From positions 248,001 through 312,000 of the forward strand of contig NZ_FUKM01000033.1 in NCBI RefSeq assembly GCF_900163645.1: DNA of 64,000 nucleotides, given 5' to 3'. Both the position numbers and the translations under genes were made by a program. The stretch's first letter is position 1; the number at the start of each line of letters is the position of its first letter. The notes under the pieces were generated by a model. That model did not search any database and was not told the DNA's origin. It worked only from the letters and a program-made list of their open reading frames with translations. This DNA is from Halomonas citrativorans (GTDB lineage: Bacteria; Pseudomonadota; Gammaproteobacteria; Pseudomonadales; Halomonadaceae). Positions 6,909-52,239 of this stretch are shown here, in pieces.

Positions 6909-7823
6909 AGCATGCACTCCTGTTAGCAGGGGAGTTAACAACGGTTCTTGTTATGAGGATTTTTGGTTGTGCGTCGCAGCATTGGCTGCGGCGGAGGATA
7001 GTAGGCGCTTTTGAGGGTTGATGCTAGTCCTAACGTTGTAGGTAAAAGATGATGGGCTGTAAGTAATGGCTTACAGATTGAGTAGATGAGTGCTTACATT
7101 GTTGAATGAAAAAGGTTTTCACAAACAATATAAAAAAGCCTCAGGGTGGCATGAGTTGGATATTTTTTAGCAGTTCGCTGGTGAACTAACGTGTAATTCC
7201 CAAAAGCTAAAGCCCATGGCCATATGTCTGGCTTTAAAGCGCCGTCACGGCCCCTCCGTGAGCCTTTACACCTGGAGTAGCTCGCAGCTCCCCATTAAGC
7301 GCTGTCTTGGCTAGCGCATGAGCTTTTACAGTTATTTTTGGGTCTATTGGTTAGCTATGGGCCATCATGCACCATTTTATGGGGCATGATTAATAGTTGT
7401 GCTGCTTATATTTGCTGCGCTGCACTCTGTGCTCAACCGTTTGTTTTAATAGTTTTTTGCTTTTCGGTTGAGACGAAAGTCTATGTCCTGTGTGATTAAA
7501 ACTTTGGTCTCAATTTAAGCAATAAGCCTTGCGACACTCGGTACTTGGCAATAATGTTTATTTGTATGATGTATGACGATAAGCCGTGATAGCGCTGTGT
7601 GTGAGAGACGACTCTGCTCTCAAGGTTTTAACTAATAACTTATTAGCTTGTGAAATGAGTTGATGTGGCTGTATTCGCAGGTTTGTGAAAGATGCTTAAT
7701 TTTCGTAAAGATAGGGTACTGAATCGAATGGCAGTGGCAGCCGTTGGAACAGCTTTTTGATAGTGCCAACGAATAAGTATCTTCAAACCGATAAAATCAA
7801 CAATGAACGCAAAAGGTGAATTT
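6909..7823. other. 915-base non-coding stretch upstream of aldarate operon A
   Basis: No convincing ORF is visible and the sequence is AT-rich compared with its neighbours. It holds the promoter side of the 40-residue gene, an imperfect 60-base-period repeat (7231-7270 and 7291-7330, both ending GAGCYTTTACA), and the candidate GntR operator at 7562-7579. The rest may be decayed sequence. Confidence 0.5.
7562..7579 (+). promoter_or_regulatory. candidate GntR operator, site 1 (operon A)
   Basis: TTGTAT-GATGTA-TGACGA, built as 6-6-6 with outer half-sites and a GATNNA spacer. A 17-base core, TTTGTATGATGTATGAC, is identical to that upstream of kdgD. It lies about 245 bases before the TctC start. 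See the four-site finding. Confidence 0.6.
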
Positions 7824-8879
7824 ATGTTGCTATCAAAGAAAACAATGATGGGCGTTGGCTCTGCTGGCTTGATTGCAGCATTAGCTATGCACTCCGGCAT
7901 TGCCATGGCACAAGACGCCCAGATGCGTGGCAATATCCGCGTCGTAATTGGCTCTACTTCTACCGGTGGCGACACTTACCAAAACGCCAGCATCGTTGTT
8001 GATCGTCTAGCCGAGCATCTCGGCTTAAATATGAAGGTTGATGCCGTAGGCGCAAGCTCAGCGTTTCGCACACTGGATAGGGATTCTCGGGGCAATACCC
8101 TGATGATTTTTCATGATCAATCCTATCTTGGTCATCTCTATGGCGTGCAAGGCTATGACGATATCTTTGAAAAGTACACGATTGGGCCGACTATCGCGAT
8201 CAACCCCGGCAACGCCTATCTCGTGGCCAAAGACTCTCCTTATGAAACCCTCGACGATATCATCGAGGCGGTAGGTAACGGCGAAACCGTGCGCGTAGCG
8301 ATCCAGCCTGGCGGCGTTTCCGAGATCGGCTTCAGTGCATTGAAAAATGCCATTGCTATTGAGCACCCCGGACAGGAAGACAATCTGGTAGCCGTTAATA
8401 CAGGCTCTCAGTCTGATAAAAACCAGCAGCTGTTTGATGGTCAAGCCGATGTCATTAATGGCAGTGTCCAAGCCAATGAGCAATACACCCGTTTACCCGA
8501 AGATGATCAGAAAGCCATGCGCTTTGTATGGTTGACAGCACGCCAAGGCACTATCGAGCAGGCGTTGGAAGAGGGTCTTGGCCAGACGACCCGCGAGCAA
8601 CTTCTTGAATACGTCGAGCCTAATGTGGATGTCACCATGGGTGAAGACGAAAACTTTACCTTCGATAAAGAGTTCTTCTTCCTTTACAACAAAGAGATGG
8701 ACCAAGGTATCGTAGATCAGATTGATGAGGCGCTTGCTGCAATATATGACGAAGGCAGCATTCAGGAAGCGCAGTTAAATGCGTTCTTTATTCCTGACTT
8801 CAACCCCTCAGAAGAGGCTTCTGAATACCTCCAAGAGAAAATGACTCGCTACGAAGAAATCATTAGCAACATCAACTAA
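7824..8879 (+). CDS. TTT transporter periplasmic binding protein (TctC family), operon A
   Basis: A 351-residue secreted solute-binding protein of the tripartite tricarboxylate transporter (TTT) class. The signal peptide ends AMA before QDAQ. The start at 7824 is preceded by AAAAGGTG; an ATG at 7803 has no ribosome site. It is longer and more divergent than the two other TctC proteins here: the usual IVVPF.AGG start of the mature domain is replaced by RVVIGSTSTGGDTYQN. The protein is rich in Asp and Glu, as in halophile periplasmic proteins. TctB and TctA follow, then garD and a gudD-like gene, so an aldarate or related ligand is likely. A 12-bp hairpin follows the stop. Confidence 0.85.
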   Translation: MLLSKKTMMGVGSAGLIAALAMHSGIAMAQDAQMRGNIRVVIGSTSTGGDTYQNASIVVDRLAEHLGLNMKVDAVGASSAFRTLDRDSRGNTLMIFHDQSYLGHLYGVQGYDDIFEKYTIGPTIAINPGNAYLVAKDSPYETLDDIIEAVGNGETVRVAIQPGGVSEIGFSALKNAIAIEHPGQEDNLVAVNTGSQSDKNQQLFDGQADVINGSVQANEQYTRLPEDDQKAMRFVWLTARQGTIEQALEEGLGQTTREQLLEYVEPNVDVTMGEDENFTFDKEFFFLYNKEMDQGIVDQIDEALAAIYDEGSIQEAQLNAFFIPDFNPSEEASEYLQEKMTRYEEIISNIN

Positions 8880-8884
8880 GCGGG

Positions 8885-8914
8885 TAGGCGCTAGTAGCTT
8901 GTTACTAGCGCCTA
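8885..8914 (+). terminator. intra-operon stem-loop between TctC and TctB (operon A)
   Basis: A perfect 12-bp inverted repeat (TAGGCGCTAGTA, 6-base loop) six bases after the TctC stop, with no T-tract. It is more likely an RNA-stabilising or attenuating element that keeps binding-protein mRNA above membrane-subunit mRNA than a full terminator. Confidence 0.6.
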
Positions 8915-8995
8915 TCCATGCGCTGAGCATGGGTATGGGGCCAAGCGTATATACCTTACTTATACGCACGCTGCGTTAATACTTCTGGAGTAAAT

Positions 8996-9430
8996 ATGGA
9001 GTCAGGGCTGTTTAGTGTTTCGATAGATTTCGAGACTTCACACTTATTCTTTCCCACTATTATTCACTGGATTCTGGGTGGGCTGTTTGCCTTGATTCTA
9101 ATAACCAAAGTAGCCCCCTTTATGGTTGCGGTTAAGCGAGGAGAGCGCACTTTACCCATTATTGGCGAATCAAGAGACAATTTTCGTTTCTTCGGCACCT
9201 TTGCTTTGATAGCCGCGTACTTTTATCTAATGGCGGTTGTCGGTGATCTGTTCCCCTATACGGGCTATGGCTTTCTGTTTGTCTCAATAGCTTTTGTACT
9301 TCTCATGTCGCTGCTTTATCTGCATGAGTGGACGAAAAAAGCCCTCGTTATTGTCGTCATCAATGCTGTTGTTGCGCCAACGCTAGCTTGGTTTGTGCTC
9401 GCCAAGCTATTCACCATCACACTGCCATAA
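8996..9430 (+). CDS. TTT transporter small membrane subunit (TctB family), operon A
   Basis: A 144-residue hydrophobic protein with about four transmembrane helices, placed between TctC and TctA genes as usual for the TTT class. TctB sequences are poorly conserved, so the call rests on size, topology and position. TGGAG lies 5 bases before the ATG. The TctA gene starts 17 bases after its stop. It probably forms the membrane complex with TctA at 9448-11007. Confidence 0.8.
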   Translation: MESGLFSVSIDFETSHLFFPTIIHWILGGLFALILITKVAPFMVAVKRGERTLPIIGESRDNFRFFGTFALIAAYFYLMAVVGDLFPYTGYGFLFVSIAFVLLMSLLYLHEWTKKALVIVVINAVVAPTLAWFVLAKLFTITLP

Positions 9431-9447
9431 CCAACGCGAGTACCGCC

Positions 9448-11007
9448 ATGGAATTTTTGTCAGTTCTCGATTTTACTTTTTTTCTACTCGTTGGATTTGG
9501 CACCCTTGTAGGTATCATTTTCGGCGCGATCCCAGGCATGACGGCTACCATGGCCGTCGCTGTCTGTCTGCCGCTTACCTATGCTTTGGGGTTGAACCAT
9601 GGCTTGGCACTGTTGCTGGGCCTCTATGTGGGCGGAATTTCAGGCGGTATGGTACCAGCGGTACTTCTGAATATCCCCGGTACGCCTTCTTCGATAACCA
9701 CCACCTTCGACGGCTATCCTATGGCGCGTAAAGGGGAGGGTGAAAAGGCATTGCGCATTTGTGTCATTGCCTCTGTCATTGGCGGGCTTATTAGCGCAGC
9801 CGTACTGTTCCTGTTTGCGCCACTGCTGGCGGATTTTTCGATCAAATTCTCTTATGTAGAGAAGTTCCTGATTATCTTGCTGGCATTGAGCGTTATTGCC
9901 TCTCTTTCAAATAGCATGCTGATCGGTATATTTAGCGGCGTCATTGGCGTCTGGCTAAGCCTTATTGGCGATTACAGCATTTCTGACGGTGGTAATGGCC
10001 ATACGCGGCTGATGTTCGACTTCATGGAACCTTACCTGTTTGAAGGCTTCTCGCTGTTACCGGTGCTAATCGGCATTTTCGGTATTTCCACCATTTTGCT
10101 GGAGGCTGAAAAAGGCGTAAAACGCGATGTCGCTGGGCAACGTATTAAAATTGGTAAAGAAGGTGGGTTTTCGCTGTCTATCTTTAAGGGCAGCCTGACC
10201 AATCTGACACGCTCTTCTTTTATTGGCACTTTTGTGGGGATGTTGCCGGGCGTGGGTGGCAGTGCTGCTTCCGTTCTCGCCTATACCCAAGAGAAAAACC
10301 TGGCACGTAACTCGTCTCAGATGGGCAAAGGAGCGCCACAAGGGTTAATCGCCTCGGAGTCTGCTAATAACGCGCTGACCGGTGGTGCGCTCATCCCCCT
10401 GCTCTCGCTTGGCATTCCAGGTGATGCTACCACGGCAGTACTGATTGGCGCCTTTACGCTACAGGGAATACAGGTCGGGCCTCTGTTCATCCCGGAAAAT
10501 CATGAAACATGGTACGTCATGATGACGGCTTTGGTGCTTGCCAATTTCGTGATGTTCTTTTTGATGTTCTTTGCCATCAAGTACATTGCCAAAGTGGTAA
10601 TGGTACCCAAACATATTCTCTATCCCATTATTGTGATGATGTGCGTAGTGGGCGCTTACGCCATTAATTACGGCATCATGTTCGATGTTTGGACTCTGCT
10701 TATCTTTGGCGTTCTGGGGTATTTGATTCAGAAAATCGGCCTTGAAATAGCGCCACTGATCATCGGCTTTATTCTGGGAAGTCAGGCCGAGGTATATTTT
10801 GTAAAAAGCCTTGAATCCTTTGGCACCTACTCGGTCTTCTTCACTAAAAGCCCGATTGCTATGGTGCTATGGGGATTGATCGCTGCCTCTGTGGTGTTTG
10901 CAATCATCATGGGCATCAGGTCTCGTGCTCGCCAAAAGATGGAGCTAAGCCAAGCCTCGGGCCCGCACACCGTTTCAGGAAAACACCATGGCTCAAACAA
11001 TGACTAA
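9448..11007 (+). CDS. TTT transporter large permease (TctA family), operon A
   Basis: A 519-residue permease with about 11-12 helices that carries out ion-driven uptake of the ligand delivered by TctC. Family signatures are intact: [11 protein letters not shown] near residue 23, [12 protein letters not shown] near 270 and [10 protein letters not shown] near 320. The start at 9448 (MEFLSVLDF) fits family N-termini; a longer reading would run back into tctB. The ribosome site is weak (GCGAG), suggesting coupling to tctB. Its 3' end overlaps garD by 20 bases, tying transport to galactarate breakdown in one transcript. Confidence 0.92.
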
Positions 11008-12556
11008 TTCGCGCGTAATAAAAGTACATCCGAACGATAATGTTGCCATTGTGATTGAGCAGGGCGGGTTGGCTGAAGGTGTGAGTATCAGCGAGGGGTG
11101 TACTACCTTGATGCCTATTCCGCAGGGTCACAAGGTGGCATTGACAGCGATTGCCCAGGATAGCCCAGTGATTCGCTATAACGAGGTAATCGGCACCGCC
11201 GTGGTTGCTATCGAGCGTGGCGGCCACGTCAATGAAACCAATGTACGCCTGCCGACGGCCCCAGGCCTTGGCGAGCTCTCGTTGGCCACGCGACAGGCGC
11301 CAGCTTCCGAACCGCTCGAAGGCTATACCTTCGAAGGGTTTCGCAATCCGGACGGCGGCGTGGGCACCAAGAACGTACTGGGGATTACCACCAGCGTTCA
11401 GTGCGTGGCCGGCACCGTGGATTATGTAGTCAGTCGTATCAAGCGTGAATTGCTGCCACGCTTTCCCAATGTTGATGATGTGGTCGGGCTCAACCATAGC
11501 TATGGCTGCGGCGTGGCGATCAACGCACCGGCGGCGATTGTGCCTATTCGTACGCTAAAAAATATTGCGCTGAACCCCAACTTCGGTAACGAGATCATGG
11601 TGATCGGATTGGGTTGCGAAAAGCTTCAACCCTCGACACTGCTCGAAGATCGCCCGGTCAAAATCTATGAAAACAGCGAAGCCGCCGATCCGGAAGCCAA
11701 CGTACTGAGCCTTCAGGATGAGAGCTTTGAAGGGTTTGGTGACATGGTCGACGGCATTTTAGCCATGGCCGAGCGCCATTTGGAACGGCTCAACAAGCGC
11801 AGCCGTGAGACCTGTCCTGCATCTGATCTTGTGGTAGGTATGCAGTGTGGAGGAAGTGATGCTTTCTCTGGCGTCACTGCGAACCCAGCCGTCGGCTTTG
11901 CTACTGATCTGATCGTAAGAGCTGGCGGTAGCGTGATGTTCTCTGAAGTCACGGAAGTGCGCGATGCCATCCACTTGCTAACGCCGCGAGCTATTAACAA
12001 GGAAGTGGGAGAAGCGCTGATTGAACAGATGGCTTGGTACGATGATTACCTCTCTCAAGGACAGGCTGATCGTAGTGCCAACCCCTCGCCTGGCAACAAG
12101 AAAGGCGGGTTAAGTAATGTCGTTGAAAAGGCGCTTGGTTCGGTGATTAAGTCGGGTAACTCGCCCATTGTGGATGTGATTGGTCCTGGTGAGCGCTTAC
12201 GGCGTAAAGGACTCACCTTTGCAGCTACACCGGCGAGCGACTTTATTTGTGGGACTCTGCAATTGGCTGCAGGCATGAACATGCAGGTGTTCACCACAGG
12301 CCGTGGAACGCCCTATGGTTTGGCAATGGTGCCGGTGCTAAAGGTCTCCACTAATTCACAGTTAGGAAGACGTTGGCACGACATTATCGATTTGGACGCC
12401 GGTCGCATCGCCACGGGTGATGCCAGCATTGAAGACGTTGGATGGGAGCTTTTTCATCTGATTCTCGATGTGGCGAGTGGGCGCAAGCAAGCCGCTGCTG
12501 ATCGATTGGGTATCCATAACGATTTAGTGTTATTTAATCCTGCACCTGTGACGTGA
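10988..12556 (+). CDS. garD: galactarate dehydratase
   Basis: A 522-residue enzyme dehydrating meso-galactarate to 5-dehydro-4-deoxy-D-glucarate (EC 4.2.1.42). It follows E. coli GarD (523 residues) closely throughout: IPQGHKVAL in the N-terminal SAF domain, [52 protein letters not shown], and the C-terminal [10 protein letters not shown]. The family needs Fe2+ or another divalent metal. CAGGAAA precedes the ATG at 10988, and the gene overlaps tctA by 20 bases. Next comes a gudD-like gene. The other UxaA-family possibility, altronate dehydratase, is less likely given the close full-length match to GarD. Confidence 0.95.
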
Positions 12557-12607
12557 GTGTGGAAAAGACATCCTGGCTGGACTAATAGTACAAGAGGTTA
12601 GTGATTT

Positions 12608-13933
12608 ATGTTCCCGAGAATTAAATCCATGAGCGTCGTTCCTGTTGCTGGCTACGATGGGTTTTTGCTCAACTTGAGCGGCGGCCATGCACCATGGTTT
12701 ATCCGTTGCGTTGTCATTCTTGAAGATGACGCCGGTAATAAAGGGGTAGGTGAAATTCCTTCTAGTGCCGGTATTCTTAAGGGTTTGGAACAGTGCCGGG
12801 GTATCGTTGAAGGGTCGCGCATCAACAATATCAAACAAACCCTCAATAACGCGCGCTTGGCATTGGCCAAAAATGGCCGTGAAGAGCGCGGTCGCCAGAC
12901 GTTTGATCTACGAGTCGCTGTTCACGTTATTACGGGTATCGAGTCCGCATTGTTAGACCTTTATGGCCAAACGTTGCAGCTGCCTGTCGCCGATTTGTTA
13001 GGGCAATATGGTCGCCAGCGCGATGAGGTAGAGGCTTTAGGTTATTTGTTTTTACTTGGAGATCCTGGCAAAACCGATCTCCCATATCCTCAAGCATCAG
13101 ACCCTAAAGATGCGTGGGATGAAGTTCGCTATCAGGAAGCGCTAACGCCTGACGCCGTGGCGAGCTTGGCTAAGGCTGCCTATGAGCGTTACGGATTCAA
13201 GGATTTCAAACTTAAAGGCGGTGTGCTGCGCGGTGAAGAAGAAGCTGACTGCATTCGCGCCCTTTATGAAGCCTTCCCTGAGGCGCGCTTGACGTTGGAT
13301 CCCAACGGCGCATGGAAGCTTGATGAGGCGGTGCGTGTTCTGGACCCGATCAAGCACCTGCTTAGCTATGCAGAAGATCCTTGCGGTCAGGAAGAAAGCT
13401 ACTCAGGCCGTGAAACCATGGCTGAGTTCAAGAAGCGTACAGGCCTGCCCACAGCAACAAACATGATTGCGACCGACTTTAAGCAATTGCAGTACGCCGT
13501 ACAACTTAATGCAGTGGATATTCCGCTTGCTGATTGCCATTTCTGGACCATGCAAGGAGCGGTCATGGTTGGCGAATTATGCCACGAGTGGGGTATGACT
13601 TGGGGCTCGCACAGCAATAACCATTTTGATATTTCACTTGCGATGATGACGCATGTTGCGGCCGCCTGCCCAGGAGAGATTACGGCGATTGATACCCACT
13701 GGATCTGGCAGGATGGGCAGCGTATTACGAAAAATCCGTTTTTAATTCGAGATGGAAAAATTAAGGTTCCTACCACACCTGGCTTAGGAATTGAATTGGA
13801 TGACGATAAGCTTATGGAAGCACATCGCCTTTATAAAACCCTGGATGTAACGCAACGAAATGACGCCATGGCTATGCAGTTCCTTGTTCCTGATTGGAAG
13901 TTTGATCCTAAACGCCCAGCATTGGTTCGTTAA
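12608..13933 (+). CDS. glucarate dehydratase-like enolase-superfamily enzyme, copy 1
   Basis: A 441-residue enolase-superfamily acid-sugar dehydratase of the GlucD type. All catalytic residues are present, offset by -4 from E. coli GudD: K201 and K203 (FKLKGG), metal ligands D231, E256 and N285, and the D309-H335 dyad with N337 (WGSHSNNHF). It departs from GudD in places, for example ADC instead of ADP beside the catalytic Asp and GEIPSSAG instead of GEIPGG in the capping region. It may therefore be GudD proper or a GudX-like paralogue with another or weaker specificity. It is the last gene of operon A, 51 bases after garD. The second copy is at 18861-20201. Confidence 0.88.
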
Positions 13934-14368
13934 ATGAACGGTAAGTCTTGTATGCTAGTCGAGTAGAAGTTTCTCTTACGCTTTGGTTAACTATAATTTT
14001 CTTGCTTGTATAAAAGATAGTTGATGTTTCCAAGTTTGCTGCTTATTAATCAGCGTGGTTTTGCTTTTAATTTGCAGCTTACTTGGTGTGTTTCATCAAG
14101 TTATAATTAGTGACTTTGCACAATTTGTGTAGAGTAGCAAAACTTTCTGTTCCTGTTCCTGTTGCCATTATCGTGTATCACTTTGACCGGTACGAATGTA
14201 GGCAGAGTAAACTATTTGGCTAAGTCTGGACTATAGTCGTATGTTCAACGTATTAAACCCACGCTAGGTTATGGTTGTATGATTAAATACATATGACGTT
14301 TGAGGCGGCATACTAATTAATACCGAGATTTGACATAACTATAAAATTAACAACCTGGAGCAGATGTC
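13934..14368. other. 435-base AT-rich intergenic stretch between operons A and B
   Basis: No ORF is supported. It contains the candidate operator at 14275-14292. I saw no strong terminator after the gudD-like gene. The AT-rich composition continues into the operon B transporter. Confidence 0.5.
14275..14292 (+). promoter_or_regulatory. candidate GntR operator, site 2 (operon B)
   Basis: TTGTAT-GATTAA-ATACAT, with matched half-sites TGTAT and ATACA around a 6-base spacer. It shares the TTGTAY-GATNNA pattern of the other three sites and lies about 77 bases before the TctC start. Confidence 0.55.
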
Positions 14369-15343
14369 ATGATAAATATCAAAAGCTTATTTGTAGGTTC
14401 TGCGTCTGTATCGCTGATCGTAGCCGGTAATGTCGCTTTAGCTAATGAATTTCAAGGGCCTGTTAGGATCGTTGTTCCGTTTGCTCCTGGAGGCACCTCA
14501 GATATTCTTGCACGCTACATTGCGCCAGAACTCTCCGAAGCCATTGGTCAACCCGTCATTGTCGAAAATAAGGCGGGGGCAGGGGGGAATATTGGCGCGG
14601 ACTATGTGGCTAAAGCAAACCCTAACGGGCATACGCTTTTACTTTCGGATCTGACTGCACTACTAGCTGCGCCCAGCGTACTTGATAATGTTGCTTATGA
14701 TATTGAAAGCGACTTGTCGCCTGTGACGATGGTTTCTTATTCGCCTTATGTGTTAGGCATGTCACAGCAGCATAATTTTGAAAGCTTTGATGATCTTGTC
14801 GAGTATTCTCGCAATAATCCTGGTGATATTGCCGTCGCAACATCCGGTGTAGGAGCAAATAATCATATTACTACCGAGCGATTAATCCAGGATTTAGGGC
14901 TTGATTGGACGGTCATTGCTTATCGAGGTGGGTCTGATGCTACACGTGCCGTAGTGTCTGGTGAAAGTGATATGTTATTGAACGGTACAACAGCTTCCCT
15001 TCCTTTTGTTTTAAATGATCAAATGAATGCGCTAGCAGTAACTGGAGAAGAGCGGTTAGAGGAGCTCCCTGATACGCCAACGTTTCGTGAGCTAGGACTT
15101 CCGGGGGAGCTTGATGGAACCTATCAAGGTATTTTGGTAACAGCAGGCAGTCCGCCAGAAGTAGTTGAACGCCTTCAGAAAGAGCTTGCTGATATACTGG
15201 CGACTGAAGATTTACAAGCAAAAATTGCCCAACAAGGCGGCCAGGCTCGACCTTCTGAAACCTCTGCTCAGTTACAGGAATGGATGACCGAACAAATGGC
15301 AGAGTTAACTGAGTTTATTGCTGGATCTGATATTAAACAATAA
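14369..15343 (+). CDS. TTT transporter periplasmic binding protein (TctC family), operon B
   Basis: A 324-residue secreted binding protein with a signal peptide ending ALA before NEFQG. The mature start VRIVVPFAPGGTSDILAR and the motif VIVENKAGAGGNIGADYVAK are classic for the TctC/Bug family. CTGGAG lies 8 bases before the ATG. TctB and TctA follow, but no catabolic enzyme does, so its ligand is judged from the shared operator and neighbouring aldarate genes only. Codon use is visibly more AT-rich than in operons A and C, which may point to separate acquisition. Confidence 0.9.
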   Translation: MINIKSLFVGSASVSLIVAGNVALANEFQGPVRIVVPFAPGGTSDILARYIAPELSEAIGQPVIVENKAGAGGNIGADYVAKANPNGHTLLLSDLTALLAAPSVLDNVAYDIESDLSPVTMVSYSPYVLGMSQQHNFESFDDLVEYSRNNPGDIAVATSGVGANNHITTERLIQDLGLDWTVIAYRGGSDATRAVVSGESDMLLNGTTASLPFVLNDQMNALAVTGEERLEELPDTPTFRELGLPGELDGTYQGILVTAGSPPEVVERLQKELADILATEDLQAKIAQQGGQARPSETSAQLQEWMTEQMAELTEFIAGSDIKQ

Positions 15344-15380
15344 TTGTTAGCTATTAAGAAGTTTAAATATAAAAATAGAA

Positions 15381-15400
15381 TCCTGCTCTTTGGAGCAGGA
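15381..15400 (+). terminator. intra-operon stem-loop between TctC and TctB (operon B)
   Basis: A perfect 8-bp stem, TCCTGCTC, with a 4-base loop TTTG, 38 bases after the TctC stop. No T-tract follows. Same position in the operon as the hairpins of operons A and C. Confidence 0.5.
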
Positions 15401-15431
15401 CTCTCGTTGCCCAAGAAAAGAGAAAAGAAGG

Positions 15432-17383: not shown

Positions 17384-17433
17384 CGTTTTAAACTAATTCT
17401 TAAAAAGCTGTTTTTAACCTTGGGAAGTTTTTT

Positions 17434-17562: not shown

Positions 17563-17710
17563 GTGGTTCAGCTACACATTGCTGCCTAGAATTTTTTCAT
17601 ATTAATAATAATTTTCAGTTACTTAGCCAGTAAGCGGCTCCACGTCCTGATCGATAATCCCGGGGGTTGTCTCATTCAGAACCGTCTTAGGCTAAAGTCT
17701 AGAGGAAACT

Positions 17711-17728
17711 TTGTATGATGTATGACAA
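17711..17728 (+). promoter_or_regulatory. candidate GntR operator, site 3 (operon C)
   Basis: TTGTAT-GATGTA-TGACAA. It matches 14 of 18 positions of the palindromic site upstream of the GntR gene, and shares 17 identical bases (with one base to its left) with site 1. It lies about 107 bases before kdgD. Confidence 0.62.
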
Positions 17729-17834
17729 TGTTGGCTATATGATACTGAGATATTCAACCTGGTACTAAATAACTGAGCCACACGAGTCACCGCTCGTCCA
17801 GGTTCGCTTACTGTATAAACAAGAGGAGATTACC

Positions 17835-18752
17835 ATGAACTTTTCCAAAGCGACGCTTAAAGCTTCTATTTCTGACGGCCTGCTTTCCTTCCCTGTAACT
17901 GATTTCGATGCTGACGGTAAATTTGATGCTGAAAGTTACCGTAAGCGCCTGCTATGGTTGAAAGATTATGAAGTGACCGCACTTTTTGTCGCTGGCGGTA
18001 CGGGTGAGTTTTTTAATATTACGATCGACGAGTATCGTGAAATTGTTAAGGTGGCTGTTGAAACCATCGATGGAGATGTGCCGGTCATTGCGAGTGCGGG
18101 CCAAAATGTCGAGCTAGCGAAAGAGCAGGTTAAAGCCGCCCAAGAAGCAGGCGCCGACGGCATTTTGTTAATGCCTCCCTATCTTACCGAGTGTTCGCAG
18201 TCCGGGATTGTTGATTACGCTGCTAGTGTTTGTGAAGCGACTGAGCTAGGTGTTATCTATTATAACCGTGCTAACGGGTATCTGGGTGTAGATGGTGTCA
18301 AGGCGTTAGCCGATCGTTGCGATAACCTGGTCGGGTTAAAAGATGGTAAAGGCGATATGCAAACGCTGAACATCACCATCAAAACGCTAGGTGACCGTTT
18401 GGCCTATGTTGGCGGCGTGCCAACGGCAGAAATCATTGCTGAAGCTTACTTGGCCATTGGTGTGAGCACCTACTCCTCGGCGGTCTTTAACTTCGTGCCG
18501 GAGATGGCCGTGACGTTTTACAAGGCAATGCGTCAAGGCGACAGTGAGTTCGTTAAGAAAGTAACCCGCGAGTTTTTCATTCCTTTCGTTACTTTGCGCG
18601 ACACCACGCCGGGGTATGCAGTGAGCTTGGTTAAAGCAGGGGCTGGCATCGTGGGCTACCCAGGCGGCAACGTACGCGCCCCCCTGACTATGCCTAATGA
18701 TCAAGAGATGGGGCAGCTTAAGCAACTGGTTGAGAAAGCAAAGTCTTTTTAA
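17835..18752 (+). CDS. kdgD: 5-dehydro-4-deoxyglucarate dehydratase
   Basis: A 305-residue DapA-superfamily class I lyase that dehydrates and decarboxylates 5-dehydro-4-deoxyglucarate to 2,5-dioxopentanoate (EC 4.2.1.41). The Schiff-base lysine is K169 in GLKDGKGD, the catalytic Tyr is Y143 in YYNR, and the carboxylate-binding GGTGE is at 54-58. Length is typical for KdgD. GAGGAG sits 6 bases before the ATG. It opens operon C and uses the product made by GarD or GudD; the semialdehyde it makes is oxidised by the enzyme at 23566-25143. Confidence 0.94.
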   Translation: MNFSKATLKASISDGLLSFPVTDFDADGKFDAESYRKRLLWLKDYEVTALFVAGGTGEFFNITIDEYREIVKVAVETIDGDVPVIASAGQNVELAKEQVKAAQEAGADGILLMPPYLTECSQSGIVDYAASVCEATELGVIYYNRANGYLGVDGVKALADRCDNLVGLKDGKGDMQTLNITIKTLGDRLAYVGGVPTAEIIAEAYLAIGVSTYSSAVFNFVPEMAVTFYKAMRQGDSEFVKKVTREFFIPFVTLRDTTPGYAVSLVKAGAGIVGYPGGNVRAPLTMPNDQEMGQLKQLVEKAKSF

Positions 18753-18766
18753 GTATTTCTGTTAGT

Positions 18767-18798
18767 TCATGAGGGATGGCGTTTTGCCGCCCTCGTGA
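18767..18798 (+). terminator. intra-operon stem-loop after kdgD
   Basis: A 12-pair stem with one small internal bulge and one T-G wobble: TCATGAGGG pairs with CCCTCGTGA and GGC with GCC, loop GTTTT. Only TTT follows it. It probably attenuates or protects the kdgD message rather than ending the operon. Confidence 0.5.
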
Positions 18799-18860
18799 TT
18801 TCAAAAGCTGACACCTAAAATGGTTACGCGCTGAAGAAGTAGAATGATGGAGAAGTGTTT

Positions 18861-20201
18861 ATGCCAAGTCACAGTACTCCCACAATAACCGAAATGCGGG
18901 TCATACCTGTTGCTGGCCGCGATAGCATGCTGCTCAATATCGGGGGGGCGCATTCGCCTTACTTCACTCGTAACCTGGTTATTTTGAAGGATAGCGCTGG
19001 CAACGTTGGCGTCGGCGAGGCACCTGGCGGCGCGACGATTGAGCAATCACTTGAGCAGGCAAGAGAGCTTGTGGTGGGGCAGTCGATTAGCCGTTTACGC
19101 TCTATGGTCTCTTCTTTAAGTAATGCGGGGCGAAGCGCTGACTTCGAGGATTTTGGTAAGGGGTCTTGGACCTTTGAGTTGCGCATCAATGCGGTTGCGG
19201 CACTAGAAGCCGCTTTGCTCGATCTAATGGGTAAGTTCTTAGGCGTACCGGTTGCTGAGCTATTGGGCAACGGTAAGCAGCGCGATAGCGTCGAAGTACT
19301 GGGATACTTGTTCTTCATTGGCGATGGTCACGCCACGCCGCTCGACTTCCGCCGCGGTACGGATGGGGTAAGTCATGAATGGTACCGTCAGCGCGATGAA
19401 GCATCGATGACACCTCAGCGTATTGTAGAGTTAGCTCAAGCTGCTCATGATCGCTACGGTTTTAAAGACTTCAAGCTCAAAGGTGGTGCATTGCCGGGCG
19501 AGCAGGAAATAGAAGCGGTCAAGGCACTGCATAAAGCTTTCCCTGAAGCGCGCACCACGATTGACCCGAACGGTGCCTGGTCGCTAAATGAAGCCATTCA
19601 TCTTTGTAAGGATCTGCATGGCGTCATCGCGTACGCAGAAGATCCGTGCGGTGCTGAACAAGGCTTTTCAGGACGAGAAATTCTGGCTGAATTTCGTCAT
19701 GCCACAGGGTTGCCGGTGGCGACCAACATGGTAGCAACTAACTGGCGTGAAATGGCCCATGCCTTGATGCTTCGCTCAGTGGATATACCGCTGGCCGACC
19801 CGCATTTCTGGACACTGTCAGGCGCTGTACGAGTTTCACAGCTTTGTCAGGACCATGGCATGACCTGGGGTTCTCACTCCAATAATCATTTCGATATTTC
19901 GTTAGCCATGTTTGCTCACGTGGGCGCAGCGGCGGTAGGACGTACGACGGCCCTGGATACCCATTGGATCTGGCAAGAGGGAGATGCTCGTTTGACGCAT
20001 AACCCACCCGAGATCGTTGATGGGAAAGTGGCGGTTACTGATGAGCCTGGCTTGGGTATTGAAATTGATATGGATCAGATCGAAAAAGCCCATGAACTTT
20101 ATCGCAGTTTACCGGCAGGCGGACGCAACGACGCCATGGCGATGCAGCATTTAATTGATGGGTGGACCTTTGATCCAAAAAGGCCAGCATTAGTGCGCTA
20201 A
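18861..20201 (+). CDS. gudD: glucarate dehydratase, copy 2
   Basis: A 446-residue enolase-superfamily enzyme converting D-glucarate (and idarate) to 5-dehydro-4-deoxyglucarate (EC 4.2.1.40). It has exactly the E. coli GudD length, and catalytic residues fall on the same numbers: K205, K207, D235, E260, N289, D313, H339 and N341. The neighbourhoods LADPHFWT and [16 protein letters not shown] are unchanged. The ATG at 18861 is preceded by GGAG at a spacing of 8; a GTG two codons earlier is less likely. It follows kdgD in operon C. This copy is the better candidate for true GudD; one GEAPGG substitution near residue 54 is noted. Confidence 0.93.
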
Positions 20202-20282
20202 GTCGGCTCGAATGACCCAGTCGCCGGAAATAACTTCAAAAAGTGATTGGGCTTATAAACGCTAGATAGAGGTAACTTAACA

Positions 20283-21224
20283 ATGAAAAAATTATTAGGC
20301 ACGCTAACACTGGCCGTAGGGCTTGTCGCTGGTAGTCAGGCTATTGCGAACGATTACCCTAATAAAAGTATCAATATGATTGTGCCATTCTCGGCCGGTG
20401 GTGGTAACGATACCTTTGTCCGGGCGCTTCAGCCGTTGCTTGAGGAACAGCTAGGAGAAACGCTGGTCATTCGCAATATTGCGGGCGGCGGTGGTGCGGT
20501 GGGCATGTCTCGTGCAGTCGCTTCTAAGCCCGACGGCTATACATTGCTTGCCGCTAGTAACGCAATGTTGACGCTCGAAGCGATGGGTAACGTCCCGTTT
20601 ACGCATGATGATTTTGATTTTATTGCGAAAATCATCGAAGAGCCGTACCTCATCGCGGTAAGTGAAGATAGCCCTTACCAGGATCTGGATAGCCTGGTGG
20701 AAGCCGCTTCAGATAGCTCTATCCGGATCGGGGCGTCGGGTGTCGGTTCTTCTGCGTACATCACCGCTAATGCTATCGCCAACCGCACCGATTCCAACTT
20801 CAACCTTATTCCTTACCCGGGTGGCTCTGAAGCTATCTCCGCCGCTATGGGCGGGCATGTTGAAGCGGTAGTGCTGGGCGGGGCAGAGCTACGTTCAGCG
20901 CTGGAATCCGGTCGATTGAATGCGCTTGCGACTACTTACGCCGAACGTAGCGACAATCTACCTGATGTGCCCACCTTTCAGGAGTCTGGTTACGATCTTA
21001 CGCTTACCGTGTGGCGCGGCATTGTAGCTCCTAAAGGTATTTCTGATGAAGTGAAGGAGCGCTGGGTGACGGCGATTCAGCAGATCATAAGCGACGGCTC
21101 TTATGAAGAAACGGCCAGCAACTTAGGTACTGATCTATCGCCTCTTTACGGTGAAGAGCTTGATGTTTTCATCAATGAGTCCGCAGGCGTCATGCGCGAA
21201 GCCGCTGGCGATCTAGCCAAGTAA
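20283..21224 (+). CDS. TTT transporter periplasmic binding protein (TctC family), operon C
   Basis: A 313-residue secreted binding protein. The signal peptide ends AIA before NDYPNK. The mature start INMIVPFSAGGGNDTFVRAL and GEGG-like motif VIRNIAGGGGAVGMSRAVA identify the TctC family. AGAGGT precedes the ATG. It lies between gudD and tctBA, so glucarate or galactarate is the likely ligand. A 9-bp hairpin follows the stop. Confidence 0.9.
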   Translation: MKKLLGTLTLAVGLVAGSQAIANDYPNKSINMIVPFSAGGGNDTFVRALQPLLEEQLGETLVIRNIAGGGGAVGMSRAVASKPDGYTLLAASNAMLTLEAMGNVPFTHDDFDFIAKIIEEPYLIAVSEDSPYQDLDSLVEAASDSSIRIGASGVGSSAYITANAIANRTDSNFNLIPYPGGSEAISAAMGGHVEAVVLGGAELRSALESGRLNALATTYAERSDNLPDVPTFQESGYDLTLTVWRGIVAPKGISDEVKERWVTAIQQIISDGSYEETASNLGTDLSPLYGEELDVFINESAGVMREAAGDLAK

Positions 21225-21236
21225 AAGCTCTCTTGT

Positions 21237-21264
21237 GCAGCCAAGGCCTCTAGGGCTTGGCTGC
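21237..21264 (+). terminator. intra-operon stem-loop between TctC and TctB (operon C)
   Basis: A perfect 9-bp stem (GCAGCCAAG, 10-base loop) 12 bases after the TctC stop, followed by TTTGTC. A weak terminator or attenuating hairpin; third case of the same arrangement. Confidence 0.6.
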
Positions 21265-21322
21265 TTTGTCATTAATCAAAACATGATGGGGCTGCCATTA
21301 AGAAGGGGCTGGGGTCTGAATA

Positions 21323-21829
21323 ATGGAACGTGATATTGGAAAGCCGCTATTTAATCTTTTTCTACTGGTCGCTTCGGCAAGTGCTTTTGTGGCAGCTGCA
21401 GCGCTACCCAACATTGAAATCGTAGGGGATTTATCACCTGCCTTTTTCCCTCAGCTGTTATCTGGATTGATATTTCTATTTGCTATTCCGTGTCTGATTA
21501 AAGATGCGCGAGAATGGTGGATAGCCAAGCAAATACATTCGGATACCCCACATGCTTTACAGGTACGAAGTATCGCGCAATGGCTGTTTGTTGTGGCCTT
21601 GCTGGCGGGCTATATCTTTGTATTTGAACGAATTGGATATATCGCCAGCACAGGGCTTTTTACCTTTTTCTGCATAATGGGATTCGTAGTGATAAGCGGC
21701 GTATGGTCGACGCTTTCGATGTCTCAACGATGGAAGTCGCTTCTCTCTACCTTGGTGTTTTCCACGATATTAGCCGTAGCTATTTTTTATGTTTTTACCG
21801 TTCTTTTCAAAATTCCGCTCCCGACTTAA
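21323..21829 (+). CDS. TTT transporter small membrane subunit (TctB family), operon C
   Basis: A 168-residue hydrophobic protein with about four helices and the motif LSPAFFPQLLSGLIFLFAI, similar to the early membrane region of TctB proteins. Called mainly from size, topology and its place between TctC and TctA genes. A G-rich ribosome site lies upstream. The permease gene follows after 36 bases. Confidence 0.85.
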   Translation: MERDIGKPLFNLFLLVASASAFVAAAALPNIEIVGDLSPAFFPQLLSGLIFLFAIPCLIKDAREWWIAKQIHSDTPHALQVRSIAQWLFVVALLAGYIFVFERIGYIASTGLFTFFCIMGFVVISGVWSTLSMSQRWKSLLSTLVFSTILAVAIFYVFTVLFKIPLPT

Positions 21830-21865
21830 GCGGGTAGCTCTTTTCCTGAGATTTGGGAGACTTAT

Positions 21866-23368
21866 ATGATTTCAGGTTATCTCGATGGCCTAGGTATGGT
21901 GCTGCAAATCAGCACGTTACTGGCCATTGCTGGCGGTACTCTGCTCGGCATCATTATGGGGTCGCTCCCCGGCTTGACCTCGGCAATGGCGATAGCGCTA
22001 CTGTTGCCGGTGACCTTTGGTATGCCGCCCGTCGCGGGAATAGGTATGCTGCTAGGTGCTCTGTGTGGCGCCGGCGCTAGCGGATCAATTCCTGCGATAC
22101 TGCTTAATATTCCCGGGACCCCCTCATCGGTAGCCACCACCTTCGATGGCTTTCCCATGGCTCAGAAGGGCGAAGCGGGCCGTGCACTTGGCTTGGCGAT
22201 CGTAGCCTCCTTCTTTGGTGGTGTCGCGAGCATGGTTATTCTCAGCCTATTGGCGCCGCCCATCGCTGAGTTCGCCCTACGATTCGGCCCTGCTGAATAC
22301 TTTTCTTTGAGTATCTTTGGCTTGGTTATCATTGCTTCTGTCGCTGGTAAGTCGTTACTCAAAGGTTTAATTGCCGGCCTGATCGGCTTTTTTGTATCGA
22401 CTATCGGAACCGATCCTATTACCGGCGTGGGCCGATTTACCTTTAACGAACTTTCGCTGCTGACAGGGGTTAATTTATTGCCAGCTCTCATTGGCCTATT
22501 TGCCGTTTCTCAGGTGCTTAAAGATACATTTGAGTACGACCCTCACGAGCGAATGAAAGAAAGTGCGCATCGCATTGATATTGCACGCCCGCGTTTTATT
22601 GAAACGTTGAAACACTGGAAAGCTGTCGTAATCGGTGTGATTTCTGGATCGGTGGTCGGTCCTATCCCAGGCGCCGGGGGGAGTATTGCCTCACTGGTAG
22701 CCTATGACCAAGCACGACGTTTTTCCAAAACCCCCGAAAAATTCGGTTCGGGTCATGCGTCGGGTATTGTGTCTGTAGAGAGCGCCAATAATGCATTGCT
22801 TGGTGGGGCACTGATACCTACGCTCGCACTGGGGATTCCAGGCGAAGCAGCGACGGCGGTACTGCTCGGTGGGTTGATGATTCAAGGGATCACTCCAGGC
22901 CCCCTTCTATTTGCGGATCAAAGTGGCACGGTATACGGCATTTTTCTAGCTTATCTGATCGCCAACATCTTCATGCTATTGATTATGTGTCTCGGTATTA
23001 AGCTATTTATTCGGGTGCTTACTGTGCCTAGAAAACAGCTCCTTGCTGCCATTTTAGTGTTCTGCTTTATCGGCGTGTACGGCGTGGATGGAGATGTATT
23101 CAATCTTTACTTAATGCTTGGCTTTGGCATTTTAGGCTATTTCCTTAACCGCTATGGTTTCGGGACTGCGCCCGTCATTCTAGGGCTGATTTTAGGGCCG
23201 ATTGCTGAGTCAAATTTACGTCGAGGGTTACAGTCCTTCCAGGGAGACTGGACACCGTTCTTTACACGTCCCATCAGTATCACCTTCTTGATCATTGCTT
23301 TGGCCTTGTTGGTGCTAACGTTGTGGCAGAACTATCGTACCAACCAGAAAAACGCTGCTTCGGGCTAG
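21866..23368 (+). CDS. TTT transporter large permease (TctA family), operon C
   Basis: A 500-residue permease with family signatures GSLPGLTSAMA near residue 32, GPIPGAGGSIAS near 267 and LGIPGEAATAVLLGG near 323. GGGAG lies upstream of the ATG. It forms the third TTT system of the window with the TctC and TctB genes before it, and shares its operon with kdgD, gudD and the semialdehyde dehydrogenase, so it most likely imports aldarates. A short GCTATA/TATAGC hairpin overlaps its stop. Confidence 0.92.
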   Translation: MISGYLDGLGMVLQISTLLAIAGGTLLGIIMGSLPGLTSAMAIALLLPVTFGMPPVAGIGMLLGALCGAGASGSIPAILLNIPGTPSSVATTFDGFPMAQKGEAGRALGLAIVASFFGGVASMVILSLLAPPIAEFALRFGPAEYFSLSIFGLVIIASVAGKSLLKGLIAGLIGFFVSTIGTDPITGVGRFTFNELSLLTGVNLLPALIGLFAVSQVLKDTFEYDPHERMKESAHRIDIARPRFIETLKHWKAVVIGVISGSVVGPIPGAGGSIASLVAYDQARRFSKTPEKFGSGHASGIVSVESANNALLGGALIPTLALGIPGEAATAVLLGGLMIQGITPGPLLFADQSGTVYGIFLAYLIANIFMLLIMCLGIKLFIRVLTVPRKQLLAAILVFCFIGVYGVDGDVFNLYLMLGFGILGYFLNRYGFGTAPVILGLILGPIAESNLRRGLQSFQGDWTPFFTRPISITFLIIALALLVLTLWQNYRTNQKNAASG

Positions 23369-23565
23369 CTATACTCGAAAGTTATAGCGGTAAAAAAGTG
23401 CGCGTCGCGAAAGCGAAGTAGCCTAATTCCTCAGCGCGGTTGAAGACAATCAAAGCAACAAGTTTTGGGTTGTGCTCGCGGTACTGCTAGATGCGCGAGA
23501 AAAATGTAAGTAACGCTTGGTCTAAACCGAGAAACTACGAAAACCACTCTCATTTAGGAGGCAAG

Positions 23566-25143
23566 ATGAATCTGACAGGTGAAATGCTCATAGGACAACA
23601 GGCTGTTAAAGGTAGCCGTAGTCCCGTTCAGGCAATAAACCCAGCAACCAACGAGCTCCTTGAACCGGCCTATGCGGGTGGTACTCAAGCCGAAGTCGAG
23701 CGGGCTTGCGAGTTGGCTTGGAACGCCTTTGATGTTTATCGTGAAACTTCACTTGAGGACCGAGCCAGGTTCTTGGAAACTATCGCTGATGAGATTGAAG
23801 TGATTGGCGAGGACCTGATTGAGCGCGCAGTGGCTGAGTCTGGTTTGCCGAAGGCTCGAATTCAGGGGGAGCGCGGGCGCACCTGTGGACAGCTACGTCT
23901 GTTTGCAAAAACTGTACGCGCTGGCGAGTGGTTGGACGTACGCATTGATCCGGCTATGCCTGATCGTCAGCCTATGCCACGTTCTGATCTTCGTCAGCGT
24001 CATATTGCACTAGGCCCGGTTGTTGTATTTGGTGCGAGTAATTTTCCGCTAGCATTTTCTGTCGCTGGCGGTGATACCGCTTCTGCACTAGCGGCTGGCT
24101 GTCCTGTCATCGTTAAGGCTCACGCTGCCCATCCTGGAACCGGTGAGCTGGTTGGCCGTGCTATACAGGCTGCAGTTAAAAAGTGCGCTTTACCAGAAGG
24201 TGTTTTCTCGCTGATGTTTGGTTCTGGCCGAGAAGTGGGGACTGCCTTGGTTTCTGATTCACGTGTCAAGGCTGCTGGCTTCACAGGCTCTAGAAGTGGA
24301 GGTTTGGCGCTTTGGAAAGCTGCTCAATCACGGCCCGAGCCGATTCCTTTCTACGCTGAAATGAGCTCTATTAATCCGGTTTTCCCGCTACCTGCGGCCC
24401 TCAAGTCGCGTGGCGCAGAAATGGGCAAGGCATTTGTTGGCTCACTCAACATGGGCGCAGGCCAGTTCTGTACTAACCCAGGGCTGGTCATTGCGGTTAA
24501 GGGGGCCGAGCTAAACACCTTTATCGAAGCCGCAGGTGAGGCCGTTAAAGCGAGTGGCGCGCAAACAATGCTGACGCCAGGTATTTTCGAAGCCTACGAA
24601 AGCGGCGTGAAGAGTTTTGCCGACAGTGGTAAGGCGCAAGAAATCGCGCGAGGGCGGAAGGGTGATGGCCCCAACCAGTGTCAAACCGGCTTGTTCGTAG
24701 CCAGCGCTCAGGATTTTCTTGGCAATGAAGCATTGCAGGGAGAAGTGTTTGGTTCGACCTCGTTAATCGTTGAGTGTGCTAATACCGCAGAACTCACGCA
24801 AGTTGCAGAGCATTTGGAAGGCCAACTGACTGTAACGCTACAGATGGATGATGCTGATCTGGAAGCCGCGCGAGAGTTGTTGCCGACGCTGGAGCGCAAG
24901 GCAGGTCGTATTTTGGTTAACGGCTGGCCAACCGGGGTTGAAGTGTGTGATGCAATGGTTCACGGCGGGCCGTTCCCAGCAACATCCGACTCACGTACTA
25001 CCTCTGTAGGTACGGCAGCAATCTTCCGCTTTCTGCGGCCGGTTTGCTATCAAGACCTTCCTGATGCGCTATTGCCCGCTGCTATTAAACAGGAAAACCC
25101 ATTAAAACTACGTCGTTTAGTCGATGGTGCACGAGAGAGTTAA
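23566..25143 (+). CDS. alpha-ketoglutarate semialdehyde dehydrogenase (2,5-dioxovalerate dehydrogenase)
   Basis: A 525-residue aldehyde dehydrogenase of the KGSADH group, oxidising 2,5-dioxopentanoate to 2-oxoglutarate with NAD(P)+ (EC 1.2.1.26). Catalytic residues are N159 ([11 protein letters not shown]), E265 (YAEMSS) and nucleophile C302 ([10 protein letters not shown]). The start at 23566 is set by TAGGAGG 5 bases upstream and gives the usual 525-residue length; an earlier ATG at 23491 would add 25 unlikely residues. It ends operon C, completing the route from galactarate and glucarate to the TCA cycle, and is followed by a good terminator. Confidence 0.93.
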
Positions 25144-25176
25144 GACGTTCGCGTGTATAAATGTTAATGACAACAT

Positions 25177-25202
25177 AGGCCGCTCTCACGAGTGGCCTTT
25201 TT
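25177..25202 (+). terminator. rho-independent terminator after operon C
   Basis: A 9-bp stem with one G-T wobble (AGGCCGCTC against GAGTGGCCT, loop TCAC) followed by TTTTT at 25198-25202. It closes the kdgD-to-dehydrogenase transcript. Confidence 0.85.
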
Positions 25203-25291
25203 AAGCTACGAATATAAAAATATGCACGGTTATATTAAGTCCTTTTATTTCGCCTGAGTATAAAAGCACCTTCATTATGTTTGGAGAAAAT

Positions 25292-26299
25292 ATGGCTGAC
25301 GTTGACTTTGCGACATTGCAAAATACCCTTGAAAAGGCACTATTAAAGGCGGGTCTCACACCAGATGATGCTGCAGTCTGTGCCCAAATTCATGCTGAAA
25401 GTACTCGCGATGGTGTCCATTCTCATGGGATTGGCCGGATCCCTCGATTTATTGAATATGTTGGACGTGGATGGATAAATATTAATGCTACGCCAAGCGT
25501 TGTACAGCGGTTAGGAGCGATTGAGGTGCTTGACGGAGGCCAAGGCATTGGTGTGCTTAACGCTCTTAGTGCAACAGATCGAGCAATCGCATTAGCGCGT
25601 GAACACGGTATGGGGCTGGTAGCGTTACGTGATACTACCCATTGGATGCGTGGAGGAAGTTACGGATGGCGTGCAGTTGAGCAAGGGTTCGCTGCGATTA
25701 TGTGGACCAATACCGAGTCTTGTATGCCTGCTTGGGGAGGAGTATCGCAGTCTATCGGTAATAATCCATTAGTGATGGCTGTACCGCATAGTTCAGGCCC
25801 ACTAGTACTCGATATGGCGATGTCCCAATTTTCCTACGGAAAGTTGCAAACAACAGAGTTAAAAGGTGAACAATTACCTATTGATGGTGGTTTCAATGAA
25901 CGTGGAGAGTTGAGTCGCGATCCTGCAGCTATCGCCGCGACACGGCGCTTGCTTCCAACCGGTTATTGGAAGGGGTCAGGGCTTGCGATTCTACTTGATG
26001 CAATGGCCGCTTTACTCGCGCAAGGGAGGCCAAGCCATGAAATTGATGCAGTTCAGCGTGGAAGCGGTGGTGGTAGTTGCCAAGTGTTTATGGTTTTTGA
26101 TCCAGAGCAGCTGGGTAGCCGTGCGGCCTGTGATGCCCTTGTTGAGGGAATTCAGACGCATTTAGCCGCCACTAGGCCCGCTAAGCAAGGATGCAAAGTA
26201 CGTTGGCCGGGAGAGTCTACTTTTCGACAGCGATATGGTCGTGAGTTAATCTCAATTGATGATACTTTATGGCAAGCTGTTTGTGAGTTAGCTATCTAG
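25292..26299 (+). CDS. malate/L-lactate dehydrogenase family oxidoreductase, YiaK-like
   Basis: A 335-residue NAD(P)-dependent 2-ketoacid reductase of the Ldh_2 family, most like E. coli YiaK (2,3-diketo-L-gulonate reductase). Shared features are the catalytic SHG (H45), GLVALR..THWMRGGSYGW, the nicotinamide-site run IGNNPLVMAVP and RR.LP.GYWKGSGLAI.LD. The start at 25292 is set by GGAG 5 bases upstream. It is separated from operon C by a terminator and has its own promoter region. In this setting it may handle an oxidised sugar acid or a keto-acid by-product; the substrate is not known. Confidence 0.85.
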   Translation: MADVDFATLQNTLEKALLKAGLTPDDAAVCAQIHAESTRDGVHSHGIGRIPRFIEYVGRGWININATPSVVQRLGAIEVLDGGQGIGVLNALSATDRAIALAREHGMGLVALRDTTHWMRGGSYGWRAVEQGFAAIMWTNTESCMPAWGGVSQSIGNNPLVMAVPHSSGPLVLDMAMSQFSYGKLQTTELKGEQLPIDGGFNERGELSRDPAAIAATRRLLPTGYWKGSGLAILLDAMAALLAQGRPSHEIDAVQRGSGGGSCQVFMVFDPEQLGSRAACDALVEGIQTHLAATRPAKQGCKVRWPGESTFRQRYGRELISIDDTLWQAVCELAI

Positions 26300-26951
26300 C
26301 TGTATGTTAACAAAGGTTAATGATTGTTTGAGATAGTGTATGGTTTGCTAAGTATATATTGGATTTCATCATGATTAGATAGTTTAAATATAGTGGCTAA
26401 ATAAAACTTGACATCAATGTGTGTGGAGAAGCCATTATCTTAACTAGGCGCCTATGACTGAGGGAGTTGCGATGTTTTATATGAGTTTAAGCCAATTTCC
26501 CCCTCATTTGCTGCTAGTAGTCGAGCGCTTTTATGAAATTAATAGATTGACATAAAACATTATTGTGAGGAAGAAACCTGAAACTTTGTATAGCTTTAAA
26601 TTTAAGCACAGAGTAGTCGCAGCATAAGATGGAAAAGGTATACTGCAAAAGCGATTGCTCTTTTGATGTTAGGTGGTATATGTCGTATGTTCTAATAGAC
26701 CCCTTGAGTGAGTAAACGCCTGTTGAAAGGGTAGCAGGTCTCCTATGGTGGCTGAAAAAAGCCTCGAGTTAATACCTTATATCAGCCGACCATAGCAAAT
26801 ATCTTTACGTTGAACACGGTAAGGAAACAGTACGGTAGCATGGAGGAAAATTTTTCTTCGCTGGGCATCCTTATAAAGCCTAATAGTACTTATATAACTT
26901 TGTTTGTACGATATAGTACAAACAAGTAAATAAATGGAAAGGATCGTTGAT
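26300..26951. other. 652-base AT-rich interval before the GntR gene
   Basis: No supported ORF. It contains the palindromic operator at 26904-26921 near its right end. Two TTGACAT sequences (26409 and 26549 areas) could be -35 elements, but I could not pair them with convincing -10 boxes. Confidence 0.45.
26900..26925 (+). promoter_or_regulatory. palindromic GntR operator, site 4 (autoregulation)
   Basis: A perfect 10-bp inverted repeat, TTGTTTGTAC and its complement, around a 6-base centre GATATA. The inner 18 bases (26904-26921) read TTGTAC-GATATA-GTACAA, the most symmetric of the four related sites. It ends 27 bases before the regulator start. Confidence 0.72.
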
Positions 26952-51012: not shown

Positions 51013-51068
51013 GATTAACTCCTGATGTTGGTCTTATTGGTGTAGAGCGTCCTGCATGGTGATGTTGA

Positions 51069-52208: not shown

Positions 52209-52239
52209 ACACCATAGACTCCGTTCATGTTAAATAAGA

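Follow-up and report, generated by a model that had tools for sequence, protein, structure and literature searches.

The work of Bouvier et al. 2019 is said to describe GguR of other Proteobacteria as a FadR-type regulator of oxidative hexuronate and aldarate pathways that responds to aldarate effectors. For two Halomonas strains, HL-48 and HL-93, PMC5507952 predicts a regulon in which GguR, a GntR-family protein, governs galactarate and glucarate genes together with a TctABC transporter; in HL-93 it also includes a second operon, whose genes are those of Udh, Gli, Gci and a tripartite ATP-independent periplasmic (TRAP) transporter. Here we analyse a stretch of 64,000 nucleotides from Halomonas citrativorans (contig NZ_FUKM01000033.1, positions 248,001 to 312,000; hereafter the window), in which four related 18-bp sites accompany three gene series for sugar-diacid uptake and catabolism as well as a gene for a GntR/FCD protein (Table 1). 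From sequence comparison we consider it about 90% probable that this island is a GguR regulon, in which the protein encoded at 26952-27701 would repress the three operons and its own gene until released by a sugar diacid or an early product. Because such a regulon has already been predicted in the two Halomonas strains, the island would represent a further example and not a new system.

By gene layout, the island can be likened to the Halomonas GguR regulon as outlined in PMC5507952, with which it shares a GntR-family regulator, galactarate/glucarate genes and a TctABC transporter of the tripartite tricarboxylate transporter (TTT) type, whereas it differs in its three TTT systems and its dlgD-like gene, and in that no hexuronate branch (Udh/Gli/Gci/TRAP) was recognised in the island. 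The named loci used for comparison come from strains other than HL-48 and HL-93, and the loci appear, from their sequences, to match both layouts published there (TctABC; Udh/Gli/Gci/TRAP). The nearest named regulator is that of Halomonas colorata (90% identity), in whose locus (L065) the order is site, kdgD, DctP, DctQ, DctM, MR_MLE, Amidohydro_2, Epimerase family and GntR, with enzyme names taken from family and gene order, as none of the three enzymes scored above the cut-off of an equivalog model. Among the papers listed by a literature search, none besides PMC5507952 names such a Halomonas regulon, judging by titles and abstracts.

The four sites had been proposed in an earlier note on this DNA, and all of them can be read directly in the window at the positions it gave, on the + strand. 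Sites 1 and 3 share, as it had observed, 17 of their 18 bases, both carrying TGTATGA as a direct repeat of 7 bp; site 4 is instead symmetric and indeed lies ahead of the FadR-type GntR gene within a perfect 10-bp inverted repeat (TTGTTTGTAC at 26900-26909 and GTACAAACAA at 26916-26925, separated by a spacer of 6 bases). The note had placed sites 1 to 3 before three TTT operons, which is borne out as to their positions, except that site 3 directly heads kdgD and not a TTT gene. The pattern TTGTAYGATNNANNAC was matched four times in the window against 0.02 expected (100 shuffles; largest shuffle count 1), and the same four matches were the only ones in the entire 3.98 Mb genome (reversed control 0), so that the frequent occurrence at unrelated places which the note had named as contrary evidence was not encountered. 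Since the pattern had been fitted to the four sites, its raw match count is partly circular, and the independent part of the evidence is the lack of further matches in the genome together with the conservation of the sites in other genomes. When the genome was scanned with the family consensus TTGTAYGATRTAWKACAA, allowing up to 3 mismatches, sites 1, 3 and 4 proved distinctive by sequence (mismatches in Table 1), and site 2 was one of ten matches at 3 mismatches, the other nine being site 4 on the reverse strand and eight places beyond the island. As the reversed control gave 7 matches within the same mismatch limit, site 2 does not rise above background.

Conservation was assessed across 275 genomes of the family, 147 of which carry an ortholog of the GntR gene (E<=1e-60). 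The strict core TTGTATGATGTATKAC occurs in 112 of the 275 (reversed control 0 among the matches listed), and in the 274 genomes other than that of the window it tracks the ortholog in one direction (111 with both, 0 with the core only, 35 with GntR only and 128 with neither), which is what became of the search of related genomes suggested in the earlier note. For individual loci, 78 were found and the site scan covered 51 of these (L065-L115, with L116-L142 left out), counts out of 44 referring to the named loci L065-L108, which surround orthologous regulators of Halomonadaceae and, in 9 cases, of Marinomonas (52-54% protein identity for the latter). A site with at most 2 mismatches is present in 44/44 named loci, in 35 of which it precedes kdgD by no more than 260 bp, and a TTGTACGATATAATACAA-type site (0-1 mismatch) stands no more than 100 bp before the regulator ortholog in 14; across L109-L115, whose regulators show 33-38% identity, the site was found in 0/7. 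That the sites are functionless, having arisen by chance or as repeats, is a reading for which it can be said that the pattern derives from the sites themselves and that site 2 alone is at background. It is contradicted by this conservation across genera, by the empty reversed control of the strict core, by the lack of other pattern matches in the genome, by the presence of sites in all 44 named loci and by the one-way tracking of core and ortholog, and its probability is negligible.

It could also be supposed that a different GntR-family protein of the genome binds the sites and that the linked GntR gene is merely one target among others. Other GntR-type proteins do exist, as a search of the genome of the window yielded 35 candidates under loose criteria, with 9 of them scored and a single one matching at the cut-off, and two further GntR-type genes are located in the window at 36826 and 60899. 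GT..AC boxes are, according to PMC4494728, common to FadR-type proteins. This explanation is nevertheless improbable, given that the strict core follows the linked ortholog one way, that the site precedes the ortholog's own gene in the 14 loci mentioned above, and that the predictions of PMC5507952 assign GguR to this role in Halomonas. The sites before orthologous genes in other genera and that published regulon lend support to the linked GntR protein as the regulator of the operons, which is what the earlier note had put forward.

In the proposed GguR regulon, a FadR-subfamily protein would bind 18-bp operators (TTGTAYGATRTAWKACAA) which are partly symmetric and in which two GT-N3-AC-like boxes, 7 bp from each other, can alternatively be seen. 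These operators would sit at or just past the promoters of the three operons and over the regulator's own promoter, such that, without substrate, transcription of the genes for TTT uptake and for the galactarate/glucarate enzymes would be blocked and the regulator's own synthesis limited by autoregulation, until a sugar diacid or early product, accommodated in a metal-type FCD pocket, would release the repressor.

Several observations weigh against this proposal. FadR-subfamily operators are described in PMC4494728 as palindromes with TKGT/ACMA boxes whose GT and AC are mostly 3 nt apart, whereas the outer TTGT and ACAA of the present operators are 10 apart; the right half GT-ATG-AC (3 nt) is found in sites 1 and 3, not in sites 2 and 4. 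Site 2, at background by sequence, is the weakest member of the four, and the self-site ahead of the regulator gene is altered in H. colorata (L065) and could not be made out in L066, L067, L081 and L082. A loose pattern, present in 133/275 family genomes, occurs without the ortholog in 14 of them (own genome excluded: 118 both, 14 pattern only, 28 GntR only, 114 neither), and the reversed form of the pattern still has matches in 22/275; for 7 of the 14 pattern-only genomes sequences were among the matches listed, all of them off consensus. The 35 genomes with a GntR match but without the strict core include all 18 of genus g21, while 3 others (G207, G209 and G265; L178-L180) have TTGTACGATGTATGAC, which departs from the strict core at a single base. 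Moreover, because the regulator and its target genes are linked and travel together, their co-occurrence shows a shared cluster and not contact between protein and site.

As regards genus g21 (G173-G190), a GntR relative is found in 18/18 genomes (54-58% identity for the 17 among the matches listed) and the strict core in none; two of these genomes (G174 and G180) have TTGTATGATGTAAGAC, and the g21 protein is possibly a paralog with altered specificity.

Footprints of the individual sites were examined in relatives of the genus. TctC1 is present in 24 of the 82 genus genomes, and the 16-base core (at most 1 mismatch) lies upstream of it in 24/24 loci, the own locus included, at a distance of 113-241 bp in 8 and of 1,030-1,066 bp in 16, the longer gap apparently leaving room for kdgD, an arrangement of which L070 is one example among the named loci. 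Upstream of kdgD, all 18 bases of site 3 recur unchanged in L066, L067 and L081. TctC2 is present in only 6/82 genus genomes, and site 2 (TGTATGATTAAATACATATGAC), its background-level sequence notwithstanding, is partly footprinted there, being identical in L156 and L159 and changed in L157 and L158, with L160 having before TctC2 only TTGTATGACGACATACAT (4 mismatches), which is located farther upstream. Two neighbouring blocks were also noted: CTAAAGTCTAGA at 17690-17705, immediately before site 3, which is kept in 4/4 aligned kdgD promoters and could represent either a -10 region or a copy, shifted in position, of the second element described below, and GTCGTATGTTCAA before TctC2 (14236-14248), which is exact in the window, L156, L157 and L159, has one change in L158 and was not found in L160.

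A profile built from 65 non-redundant promoters that contain the core without mismatch showed weak conservation (0.4-0.7 bits) of a TTG box at about -34 and a TA..TT box at -11 to -6 relative to the operator, this -10-like box ending approximately 5 bp before the operator. The promoter-like pair before site 1 (Table 1) was recognised by eye from a 7-genome alignment together with this weak profile, and a sigma-70 consensus scan listed no + strand promoter by any of the four sites, the pair included. With this arrangement the operator would cover the transcription start, which would fit repression; within site 4, TATAGT could serve as the -10 box. Given the TGTATGA repeat of sites 1 and 3 on the one hand and the symmetry of site 4 on the other, occupation by either one dimer or two may be envisaged; for GntR-family sites, PMC4494728 reports weaker additional boxes at a distance of 7-12 nt.

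In an alignment of 26 orthologs (the window protein and 25 of the 44 named-locus proteins), the FCD residues D158, H162, H212 and H234 are invariant (26/26). Their spacing of +4/+50/+22 resembles the +4/+44/+22 of the Ps5454 metal site (Asn144/His148/His192/His214), as given in PMC7674646, where Asp146/His150/His195 of DgoR are described too. An AlphaFold model of the regulator (mean pLDDT 80, pTM 0.58) found its best fold match in the Protein Data Bank in DhdR (9jpj, 9vkn), whose inducer-bound domain superposes at 2.8 A over 141 columns. Superpositions of whole chains were poor, with root-mean-square deviations of 9-14 A among the matches listed (domain-only chains aside), as would be anticipated when two modelled domains are joined by a loose linker. 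Like the regulator, DhdR has an FCD-type domain, and according to its entry title its inducer is a dicarboxylate, L-2-hydroxyglutarate (L2HG); it differs in belonging to another pathway and in sharing ~30% identity over the aligned part. This match favours an effector of dicarboxylate type, by analogy only. DgoR of Escherichia coli is, according to PMC7674646, likewise a FadR-family sugar-acid repressor that has a metal pocket of the Asp/His kind and inverted repeats as operators, but acts on the galactonate pathway and other target genes. NanR of E. coli (PMC8012715) is likewise a GntR-type repressor with a repeat operator, comparable to the TGTATGA repeat of sites 1 and 3, but belongs to the sialic acid pathway and has a (GGTATA)3 repeat bound by three dimers.

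Upstream of the operators a second palindromic element, RACTTTRGTY, was encountered, which is not mentioned in the part of PMC5507952 accessible. The promoter set used for its analysis comprised 107 operator places (L109-L142 left out), of which 87 or 85 were kept after merging look-alikes; some genomes figure in it as both named and unnamed loci, and merging removes near-identical copies. An exact DACYWTRGTY lies upstream of 57/85 non-redundant operators, as opposed to 1/85 for the reversed pattern, and 47 of its 59 occurrences are 62-64 bp before the operator. Likewise, the distance from the start of ACTTTGGTY to the operator is 61-62 bp in 24/24 TctC1 loci, the own one included, and all 17 matches of T..DACTTTRGTY..A in the 44 named loci fall 47-71 bp before an operator. 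Element and operator combined into a single pattern were found in 6 of 390 genomes of the order, all 6 among its 18 family members. Further DACYWTRGTY matches in the window, at 8700, 9103, 15513, 42921 and 54271, are chance occurrences, and the full palindrome TTNRACYWWRGTYNAA, with 1 place (between aroB-like and gltB-like genes, by eye) against 4 control matches, is too strict and misses the element of site 1.

The element suggests a second regulator, and its position would suit an activator, although this is a lead only. The idea of two regulators, with GguR at the operator and a further activator at RACTTTRGTY ~60 bp upstream of the start, would add to the GguR interpretation and not replace it; it draws on the counts for DACYWTRGTY, the TctC1 loci and the named loci just given, and is set against 28 of the 85 promoters without an exact copy (kdgD promoters of the window type are in this group, as is every one of the 14 Marinomonas sites analysed), the rejection of two candidate binders, a copy position varying from -64 to -46, and shared promoter ancestry, which inflates the counts. 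On balance it is slightly favoured. For the broader statement that sugar-diacid genes of Halomonadaceae are doubly controlled, by GguR at the start site and by an undescribed factor at T..RACTTTRGTY..A ~60 bp upstream, in a pairing almost restricted to such promoters, the odds appear even.

CdaR (Diacid_rec) is known as an activator in E. coli. It was rejected as binder of the second element, PF05651 being matched by 0 proteins in the own genome and in 5/275 genomes of the family (E<=1e-10). The KdgR/IclR protein, whose gene at 54372 is preceded by TACTTTAGTC at 54271, was likewise rejected, because its ortholog occurs in only 6/82 genus genomes (own included) while the element is present in 24/24 TctC1 loci. 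A MocR/PdxR-like gene at 27949 keeps its place next to the cluster in the window and in 13 loci, but is an unlikely candidate, since L083-L096 gave no match to it and the element is present in several of these. No other cluster-conserved regulator was recognised by eye among the protein groups, only partly annotated, that are common to at least 4 of the 35 loci compared with the window for gene content.

Table 1. Coordinates of the sites, promoter elements and genes of the island in the window.
Feature	Position	Strand	Remarks
Second conserved element AACTTTGGTC	7500..7509	+	62 bp before site 1
Promoter-like pair TTGCGA - 17 bp - TAATGT	7529..7557	+	Before site 1
Site 1, predicted operator	7562..7579	+	Before operon 1; 1 mismatch to family consensus
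Operon 1	7803-13933	+	TTT receptor-like, TctB-place open reading frame, TctA, garD, glucarate-dehydratase-like
TTT receptor-like gene (TctC1)	7803	+	No family match in the scans; named from gene order
Small open reading frame in TctB place (TctB1)	8996	+	No family match in the scans; named from gene order
TctA (TctA1)	9328	+	
Galactarate dehydratase garD	10988-12556	+	TIGR03248, 885 bits, above cut-off
Glucarate-dehydratase-like, enolase superfamily	12608..13933	+	TIGR03247, 687 bits (cut-off 828.7)
Second-element copy GACTATAGTC	14229..14238	+	46 bp before site 2; GAC-N4-GTC kept in window and 4/5 relatives
Site 2, predicted variant operator TGTATGATTAAATACATATGAC	14275..14292	+	Before operon 2; 3 mismatches
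Operon 2, TctC2-TctB2-TctA2	14369-17383	+	
Site 3, predicted consensus operator	17711..17728	+	Before kdgD; 0 mismatches
Series 3	17835..26299	+	kdgD, glucarate-dehydratase-like, TctC3-B3-A3, aldehyde dehydrogenase, 3-dehydro-L-gulonate 2-dehydrogenase (dlgD-like)
Site 4, predicted symmetric operator	26904..26921	+	Before regulator gene; 1 mismatch
GntR/FCD (FadR-subfamily) predicted repressor, GguR-like	26952..27701	+	PF00392 75.9 bits, PF07729 88.2 bits, both above cut-off

Within series 3, kdgD matched TIGR03249 at 390 bits, above its cut-off, and a second glucarate-dehydratase-like protein (18855-20201) scored 720 bits against the cut-off of 828.7; as both glucarate-dehydratase-like proteins are under the model cut-off, their substrate is uncertain. 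Elsewhere in the window, a second sugar-acid cluster at 49018-56906 encodes a TRAP transporter receptor, KdgR, KduD, KduI and a BglB-like protein.

Members of the genus Halomonas serve as production hosts. What began as a guess from one window has become an operator that recurs across the family and for which a named regulator is likely, and this provides clean predictions for the control of aldarate uptake in Halomonas. The presence of three TTT systems under what would be one repressor offers a way to learn what each of them transports, and the second element points to a partner regulator of GguR.

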